Source of the DNA: Cellulomonas shaoxiangyii
Lineage (GTDB): Bacteria; Actinomycetota; Actinomycetes; Actinomycetales; Cellulomonadaceae
Assembly (NCBI RefSeq): GCF_004798685.1
Contig: NZ_CP039291.1
Span: 1,178,001-1,242,000 of the forward strand
Direction: 5' to 3'
Length of the DNA: 64,000 nucleotides
A model generated the notes under the pieces. It made no database searches, was not told where the DNA came from, and worked only from the letters and a program-made list of their open reading frames with translations. The translations under genes and the position numbers were made by a program. Shown one piece after another: positions 27,278 through 35,080 of this stretch. Position 1 is the stretch's first letter. Each line of letters opens with the position of its first letter.

Positions 27278-27283
27278 CGACTG

Positions 27284-27325
27284 CCGGCGGCGGCCCGCGC
27301 GGGGAGGGGCGGGGGCCGCCGCCGG
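27284..27325. terminator. Terminator-like hairpin after the phytase-GDPD gene
   Basis: CCGGCGGCGGCCC (27284-27296) pairs perfectly with GGGCCGCCGCCGG (27313-27325) over a 16-base G-rich loop, seven bases after the stop codon. There is no T tract. Confidence 0.65.
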
Positions 27326-27399
27326 TGCGGGCCACGGGGACGCGCCGGGGTCGGCGCGTCCCCGTACGAGCGGGTGAGGTGCGCCGCCGAGTGATCGGG

Positions 27400-27415
27400 T
27401 CGAACACATGTTCGA
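27400..27415. promoter_or_regulatory. LexA (SOS) box
   Basis: TCGAACACATGTTCGA is a perfect match to the actinobacterial SOS box TCGAAC-N4-GTTCGA, with both 6-base arms exact. It directly abuts a TACGAT -10 at 27416-27421. LexA bound here would block that promoter until DNA damage. It is the only such match noticed in the window. Confidence 0.88.
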
Positions 27416-27421
27416 TACGAT
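27416..27421 (+). promoter_or_regulatory. -10 element of the SOS-controlled small gene
   Basis: TACGAT follows the LexA box without a gap and ends 7 bases before ATG 27429, so the transcript probably begins at or next to the start codon. No TTGACA-like -35 is visible. Confidence 0.55.
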
Positions 27422-27428
27422 GGGTGCC

Positions 27429-27782
27429 ATGCCCGACCGTCCCGCCCCGCTCGCACCACCTCCGCCCGGCCGCCGGGAGGTGGCCAACAGCGAGGTGCCG
27501 GAGGGGATCCCGACCCGTCCGCAGGGTGACGTGCCCGTCATCGTGCGGGTCGTGTGGACGGACGGCACGGAGGAGTGGCGGCCGGCGCGGGCGGTGCGGT
27601 GGACCCGTGGGCACGTCATGGTCGCCTGGCGGGACGACCCGGGCGACCCGCGCTCCGAGCGGCACACCTGGCTGCGCGCGGGCGACGTGGCGCGGTCCGT
27701 CAGCTGGTTCGTGCCGCCCGAGCGCGGGCGGGGGGCCGGCGCGGGGGGAGCGGGGACCGGCCGCGTGGACCGCGCGGGGTAG
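27429..27782 (+). CDS. Small SOS-regulated protein of unknown function
   Basis: 117 residues; I do not recognise the family. A proline-rich N-terminal 20 residues precede a compact, probably beta-rich core of about 75 residues with many tryptophans (VIVRVVWTDGTEEWRPARAV, WTRGHVMVAWRD, RHTWLRAGDVARSVSWFVPP), then a glycine/arginine-rich tail. No signal peptide or membrane helix. A perfect LexA box (27400-27415) lies right in front, so damage induction is the best clue to its role. ATG 27429 is preferred because the in-frame ATGs at 27408 and 27420 fall inside the LexA box and the -10. No enzyme motif is visible. Confidence 0.75.
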   Translation: MPDRPAPLAPPPPGRREVANSEVPEGIPTRPQGDVPVIVRVVWTDGTEEWRPARAVRWTRGHVMVAWRDDPGDPRSERHTWLRAGDVARSVSWFVPPERGRGAGAGGAGTGRVDRAG

Positions 27783-34096: not shown

Positions 34097-35080
34097 TCAG
34101 CCCGCCGCCCGCACGAACCGGTCCGCCAGGGTCCGCACGGCCGCGCGCAGCTCGTCCGGGCCCACGACCTCGAACGGCACGCCGTACATGCCGAGCACGG
34201 ACGCGAGCCCGTCCCACGACCACGCGCCGGTGACGAGCCGGGCCCGGTGCTCGCCGACGGGCTCGACCAGGGCGTCGCGCCCGGACCAGCGGGCGACCTG
34301 GTCGGCCGGCAGGTCGAGCACCGCCTCGCCGCGGCAGGGCCACGCGGGGCGCGCGCCGAGCCGGTCGGCCACGAACGCCGACACGTCGCCGCCCGGCACC
34401 GCGCGCTCCGCCACGCGGGGCCCGGTCGGCGTGCGCGGGGTCATTCGGTCGACCCGGAACGTGCGCCAGTCGGCACGGTCGAGGTCGTAGGCCACGAGGT
34501 ACCAGCGCCCGCCCCACGTGACGAGGTGGTGCGGCTCGGCGCGCCGCGGCGGGCGGAAGGCGGCGTCGCCGGTGCCGAGCACGGGTCCGCTGCCTCCGTC
34601 GTAGTCGAAGCGCAGCACCTCGCGCACCCGTACGGCGGCCCCGACGGCGAGCAGCACCGCGGGCGGCACCGCCGACCGCTCGCGCCGTTCCGCACGCGGC
34701 ACGACCGTGACGGCGAGCGCGTCGGCGGCCGCGCGCAGCCGCGCGGGCATGACCTGGCGCAGCGTCGCGAGGGCGCGCCCGGCGGCCTCGTCGACGCCGT
34801 CGACGCCGGTCGACGCCGTCTGCAGCGCGAGCGTCAGGGCGAGGACCTGCTCGTCGTCGAGCAGCAGCGGTGGCATCTGGCTGCCCGCCTCGAGCCGGTA
34901 CCCGCCGTCCGGGCCCTTGGTGGCGTGCACGGGGTAGCCGAGCTCCCGCAGCCGGTCGACGTCCCGCCGGACGGTGCGCGGGCTGACCTGCAGCCGCTCG
35001 GCCAGCGCCACGCCCGGCCAGTCGCGCCGCGCCTGGAGCAGCGAGAGCAGCGAGAGCAGGCGTGCGGACGGTCCGGACAT
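34097..35080 (-). CDS. WYL-domain transcriptional regulator (YafY/DeoR-type HTH)
   Basis: 327 residues. An N-terminal winged helix (RLLSLLSLLQARRDWPGVALAERLQVSPRTVRRDVDRLRELGYPV) precedes a WYL domain (about 140-215) with the signature WGGRWYLVAYDLDRADWRTFRVDRM and a WCX C-terminal extension. Such regulators sense a small ligand or nucleic acid through WYL. ATG 35080 lies 6 bases after CACGCT, so the mRNA is probably leaderless. A palindrome upstream of this promoter recurs in front of the drrA-like gene at 35660 with the same spacing to the -10, so the regulator likely controls itself and that exporter. Confidence 0.85.
   Translation of the reverse strand: MSGPSARLLSLLSLLQARRDWPGVALAERLQVSPRTVRRDVDRLRELGYPVHATKGPDGGYRLEAGSQMPPLLLDDEQVLALTLALQTASTGVDGVDEAAGRALATLRQVMPARLRAAADALAVTVVPRAERRERSAVPPAVLLAVGAAVRVREVLRFDYDGGSGPVLGTGDAAFRPPRRAEPHHLVTWGGRWYLVAYDLDRADWRTFRVDRMTPRTPTGPRVAERAVPGGDVSAFVADRLGARPAWPCRGEAVLDLPADQVARWSGRDALVEPVGEHRARLVTGAWSWDGLASVLGMYGVPFEVVGPDELRAAVRTLADRFVRAAG

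Follow-up and report, generated by a model that had tools for sequence, protein, structure and literature searches.

A small Cellulomonas shaoxiangyii gene behind an exact LexA operator encodes a predicted SH3/Tudor-like barrel, a possible damage-induced docking factor

Small barrels of the SH3/Tudor type are found in several proteins of bacterial DNA damage responses. The Tudor-like domains of PcrA/UvrD and CarD are described as binding RNA polymerase, the same is proposed for DinX, which has a DUF3553 domain, and a Y-family polymerase is the expected partner of YolD (PMC6511836). Two other reports present PafBC as the activator of a LexA-independent damage response that acts via the RecA-NDp motif (PMC8223512, PMC6789036). 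Here we describe a 117-codon gene in a 64,000-nucleotide (nt) stretch of the Cellulomonas shaoxiangyii genome (the window; assembly GCF_004798685.1, contig NZ_CP039291.1, positions 1,178,001 to 1,242,000) that has an exact operator of the actinobacterial LexA (SOS) regulon and a product predicted to fold as a barrel of this type. Control of this gene by LexA is near certain from the sequence evidence, and we give a probability of about 0.5 to the reading that it belongs to the LexA regulon as a stand-alone gene and encodes a damage-induced docking factor.

The promoter has the layout given, correctly to the base, in a preliminary description of the locus: TCGAACACATGTTCGA with both half-sites exact, TACGAT directly after it, and the ATG 7 nt on, behind the spacer GGGTGCC (Table 1). 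Two extra in-frame ATGs, at 27408 and 27420, fall inside the box and the -10 hexamer, respectively, and thus both precede the predicted transcript start. The start codon coincides with the expected transcription start, so the transcript is predicted to be leaderless. This is the sole exact LexA box in the window, where five of the six sites with at most two mismatches carry two, while dinucleotide shuffles of the window contain a mean of 1.85 sites at that threshold. No RecA-NDp motif was found at the gene's own promoter.

The same genome encodes a single LexA (PF01726 match at 2299151), and the pattern CGAACN4GTTCG occurs at 11 places in its 3.9 Mb, compared with none for the reversed pattern. 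Exact boxes also lie near recA, dinB, a LysM gene that stands directly behind its box beside lexA, a radical-SAM gene, and a C5 cytosine methyltransferase gene. The 11 boxes also include those at L003, L005, L006, and L010. At recA (L008), a -10 hexamer, TACGCT, comes directly after the box and 178 nt ahead of the RecA start; behind the box there is also a distinct RecA-NDp motif, TGTCGGTG-N8-TACCGT. The gene in the window therefore shares its operator with recA, dinB, and lexA, but its product is none of the named SOS proteins and belongs to no curated family. Two further features of this regulon were seen: at dinB (L009) the LexA box overlaps a RecA-NDp motif and directly abuts the start codon, and the C5 cytosine DNA methyltransferase gene (L001, G000:C1:19573) starts 31 nt past its exact box.

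We found that the box is kept before all relatives of the gene identified in named genomes. Among 32 loci in named genomes, each searched from -250 to +60 around the match, a LexA box lies just upstream of every relative (26 exact, 6 with one mismatch), while the other 303,457 positions in these loci contain no exact box and 18 sites within one mismatch. By manual reading, 28 of the 32 have a TANNNT hexamer that either begins 0 to 1 nt past the box or overlaps the end of it, and by manual count an in-frame start codon follows 12 to 13 nt past the 16-bp box in 26. When box and spacing were scored jointly (box 9 to 14 nt before the start), 24 loci reached 10/10 and 4 reached 9/10, compared with 0 and 2, respectively, of 15,787 background start codons, a set drawn from the 32 Cellulomonas-type loci only that may include real promoters. 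The four loci scoring below 9 (L060, L067, L070, and L071) have boxes with other spacing or start assignments. In a second sample, which partly overlaps the first through common contigs and hence is not independent of it, a box within one mismatch is present at 12 of the 13 best loci of the bacterial family to which the window belongs. The remaining locus, L032, is truncated and lacks a box. The gene is present in 10 of 15 same-genus genomes listed, and neighboring frames are common only to close relatives. No conserved operon partner emerged, in that no neighboring frame (nine of 33 compared stretches, 1e-15) recurred in more than five other stretches, frames overlapping the gene excepted. 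Since the neighbors vary, box and gene travel together. These results strongly support the core of the preliminary description, a LexA-controlled gene for a protein of no recognized family, and its proposal that the box be sought before actinobacterial homologues is answered by these 32 relatives.

Comparison with one relative (L041) identified 29 synonymous and 5 nonsynonymous codon differences, and base changes numbered 3, 2, and 32 at codon positions 1, 2, and 3, showing that the frame is a real coding gene. Downstream lies a convergent frame that, judged by eye, resembles an ABC-2-type permease, and upstream, between the preceding gene and the operator, lies a strong GC hairpin that is possibly a terminator, with no T-run seen at it. 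From this hairpin and the convergent frame, the gene looks monocistronic. In the mechanism that we propose, LexA bound to the operator would block the promoter just upstream of the -10 hexamer; after DNA damage, active RecA would lead to LexA cleavage and release of the promoter, and RNA polymerase would start on the A of the ATG or beside it, as the spacing suggests. The product, predicted to combine a conserved N-terminal arm with a small SH3/Tudor-like barrel, would then dock on a protein partner in the damage response, for which RNA polymerase, a translesion polymerase, and the RecA nucleoprotein complex are candidates.

The preliminary description considered the protein probably beta-rich and proposed structure prediction of residues 20 to 100. 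The AlphaFold model agrees with the first point, with an arm followed by a confidently predicted five-strand SH3/Tudor-like barrel over residues 35 to 89 and a predicted local distance difference test value of at least 90 at 68 of 117 residues; a divergent family member has an identical predicted topology. The structural neighbors of both models include Tudor and SH3-like domains, with integrase C-terminal domains near the top, and the eukaryotic Tudor domains of SGF29, PHF1, and TDRD3 are among the closest known systems. YolD, CarD, and PcrA are not among the 50 structural neighbors listed, a list that does not exclude them. The integrase neighbors and the isoelectric point (pI) of the full-length protein, 11.1, are consistent with a damage-induced DNA-binding barrel that would coat or bridge DNA at stalled forks or breaks, in the manner of SH3-like integrase C-terminal or Tudor/PWWP domains, a role that we consider somewhat unlikely. 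Over 93 sequences, the conserved core has a mean net charge of +0.6 and a median pI of 7.1 and is rich in invariant Trp, Arg, and Ala; given this near-neutral core, we consider a docking module most likely.

Sequence searches of Pfam, NCBIfam, PHROGs, PADLOC, and the PDB assigned no family to the protein, and PADLOC assigned none to the four family members tested, so that the earlier statement that it matches no recognized family holds for curated collections. In the open-access literature, subscription papers being outside the search, we recognized no paper that treats the family. Two candidate matches were rejected: GYF_2 (E value of 0.018; 20 of 31 members, best 0.0053), for which only 15 residues matched, below the family cutoff, and tRNA-dihydrouridine synthase C, whose E value of 0.019 rose to 0.38 with a wider profile and which we judged a chance match. 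Weak Pfam-level matches among 18 f38-type members (f38 is an actinobacterial family with large genomes) were to fvmRadSAM-pep and YlxR in two members each and to other families in one each.

These searches also bear on an idea raised in the preliminary description, that the protein inhibits cell division. A checkpoint protein that stops division or modulates RecA or LexA, of the SulA, YneA, or DinI type, would fit a small, apparently monocistronic gene under LexA, the way in which known checkpoint proteins are encoded. However, the best 19-residue hydropathy mean is 0.32, so there is no membrane segment, and neither a LysM domain nor a Pfam signature of the SOS division inhibitors (SulA, YneA/LysM, and membrane types) was found in the protein. 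In addition, the LysM gene behind the LexA box beside lexA resembles the usual checkpoint gene and is, by precedent, the better candidate for a division inhibitor. Thus, the membrane type of inhibitor is disfavored, and a checkpoint role in general appears very unlikely.

A profile that includes distant matches (A4) found members in 27 genomes of a class-wide sample of 394, chiefly in f38, where 18 of 22 genomes are positive with one to four copies each. The f38 promoter set covers 18 of the 34 f38 matches, with the promoters of L119, L121, and L124 viewed in addition. By joint box score, 11 of these 18 loci are at 10/10, 5 at 9, and one (L096) at 8, and another (L099) has an exact box further upstream. 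The usual f38 form, CGAACN4GTTCTANNNT, in which the -10 hexamer overlaps the end of the operator, is LexA-type by sequence; it occurs at 17 sites in eight f38 genomes, 12 of them directly before family members by coordinates, compared with one site for the reversed pattern. Georgenia members have a box with one or two mismatches. Eight loci of the class sample stand outside the promoter tallies (L088, L105, L106, L108, L109, L111, L112, and L113), and one of these, L109, carries an exact box, 96 nt upstream of the match. A second small-protein family was also seen behind the CGAACN4GTTCTANNNT promoter in f38 genomes (L136, L143, and L144).

At the loci examined in Serinibacter/Litorihabitans (f13) and Brachybacterium (f11), where two of three Brachybacterium loci are on named plasmids, the LexA box is missing. 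We matched their promoters to TTGTCRGTG-N8-TANNNT, which we take to be the RecA-NDp consensus, scoring a TGTC, a NANNNT hexamer 16 nt on, and a start codon 5 to 7 nt later. This layout is present at all 11 f13 and f11 loci, two of them identical copies, with the start codon 6 to 7 nt after the hexamer, and at 10 of the 15,787 background starts. With a start codon required, the strict pattern occurs 11 to 34 times per genome in ten genomes, compared with 0 to 3 times for its reversal. One genome, G266, has 34 matches, both of its tandem family genes among them; by Pfam, the first 20 others comprise nine repair or replication genes (DinB, RecO, a PolA-type exonuclease, UvrB, an exonuclease with GIY-YIG, Lhr, an alkyltransferase, an Exo III type, and a family A polymerase), one DHFR, seven from other families, and three with none. 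Adjacent or fused WYL pairs, candidate PafBC by layout, are present in all six Micrococcales genomes checked. The motif layout at these start codons and the repair genes that share the pattern in G266 suggest that the f13 and f11 members are under a RecA-NDp/PafBC-type promoter instead of LexA, in contrast to the gene in the window. Damage control would then have been retained in the wider family through different switches: LexA in Cellulomonas, Georgenia, and f38 and a RecA-NDp/PafBC type in Serinibacter/Litorihabitans and Brachybacterium.

The family also occurs on mobile elements. Plasmid copies were found in Xylanimonas, Paraoerskovia, Brachybacterium, and Brevibacterium, and the same set of 32 Brevibacterium phage records was matched with two queries (L094 and P0131), while the phage search returned none with the protein from the window or with L102 and a viral-contig scan found no relative. 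The phage copies sit between the lysis genes and an integrase/repressor block; one of them, AGM1 gp29, is 41% identical to the f38 member L094 over 85% of L094. On the Xylanimonas plasmid pXCEL01, the member and a divergent hypothetical gene flank an exact LexA box (L145:6882-6917), each starting a short way from it, and a gene for an SOS-response-associated peptidase (SRAP) is 2 kb away; a second SRAP gene is found some 6 kb away from the B. avium copy. These plasmid and phage copies and the nearby SRAP genes keep viable the reading that the gene is accessory cargo of plasmids, phages, or islands (for counter-defense, element maintenance, or interference with host SOS) and exploits the host damage signal, and the patchy distribution, the one to four copies per f38 genome, and a recombinase-like gene that, by eye, adjoins L097 and L102 point the same way. 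Against this, PADLOC gave no match, the Cellulomonas copies lie in ordinary, varying chromosomal surroundings, and the host-type LexA box is kept in all the close relatives, making a cargo role quite unlikely.

For the preferred reading, a stand-alone docking factor of the LexA regulon, the small SH3/Tudor-like barrels of other damage responses provide the analogy from which a docking role may be drawn. The Pfam signatures of DUF3553, CarD, and YolD, the docking families named above, have no match in the family proteins, and DUF3553 was not found in the genome of the window. The analogy thus concerns how the protein may work, not its affiliation. Neither damage promoter was recognized before the divergent paralogue L040, before L093 and L103 (f45) or L033 to L035 (f7), or before the plasmid copies of Paraoerskovia and Brevibacterium spongiae, and AGM1 gp29 has neither a LexA box nor the RecA-NDp layout in an 11-kb stretch. 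The preliminary description had named homologues without a LexA box as evidence against its reading; such homologues exist among distant members only, where the 11 f13 and f11 loci carry the other damage layout and the rest carry neither. Because of the members with neither promoter, damage control, as read from these promoters, is typical of the family, not universal. We hold as tentative, and possible at best, the broader proposal of an undescribed actinobacterial family of damage-induced Tudor-type docking barrels on chromosomes, plasmids, and phages in which damage control stayed constant while the switch moved between repression by LexA and activation of the PafBC type.

Beyond model species, SOS regulons still contain genes with clear promoters and blank products. 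Here, the product is a compact, conserved domain with a confidently predicted fold, so its function can be tested with a small protein and simple genetics. If the broader proposal is true and the docking partner is RNA polymerase or a translesion polymerase, the family would be a class of stand-alone adaptors in the bacterial damage response. The family also allows one gene to be compared, in nature, under two damage regulators and provides a marker for LexA/PafBC rewiring in actinobacteria.

Table 1. Coordinates of the gene, its control elements, and related features (window positions unless another contig or locus is named)
Feature	Position	Strand	Basis or remark
Strong GC hairpin between upstream gene and operator	27283-27326	+	z-score -3.3
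LexA operator TCGAACACATGTTCGA, 16-bp palindrome, both half-sites exact	27400-27415	none	read in sequence; kept in 32/32 relatives
-10 hexamer TACGAT, abutting operator	27416-27421	+	read in sequence
Predicted transcription start, first base of ATG (leaderless mRNA)	27429	+	inferred from spacing
117-codon gene, no known family	27429-27782, including stop codon 27780-27782	+	open frame, codon comparison
Conserved N-terminal arm, codons 16-34 (R16, N20, P24, P28, P31, G33)	27474-27530	+	alignment A3, model
Predicted five-strand SH3/Tudor-like barrel, codons 35-89	27531-27695	+	AlphaFold; strands 35-43, 48-58, 62-68, 77-83, 87-89
WYL-domain regulator gene	34436-34657	-	separate from adjacent WYL pair elsewhere in genome
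Divergent family paralogue in own genome (L040, L114)	G000:C1:1490192-1490434	-	no LexA box, no RecA-NDp layout
Brevibacterium phage AGM1 gp29, unannotated member	L150:5468-5743		phage search
Unannotated plasmid member	L149 near 6001		shares AATAGAAC before ATG with AGM1 gp29

Two minor observations concern the mobile copies. The sequence AATAGAAC shortly before the ATG is common to L035, AGM1 gp29, and the B. spongiae plasmid copy. A plasmid labeled Bacillus subtilis (CP123774.1, 21148-21291) has a weak match to L094 (E value of 8e-4, 51% over half of L094).
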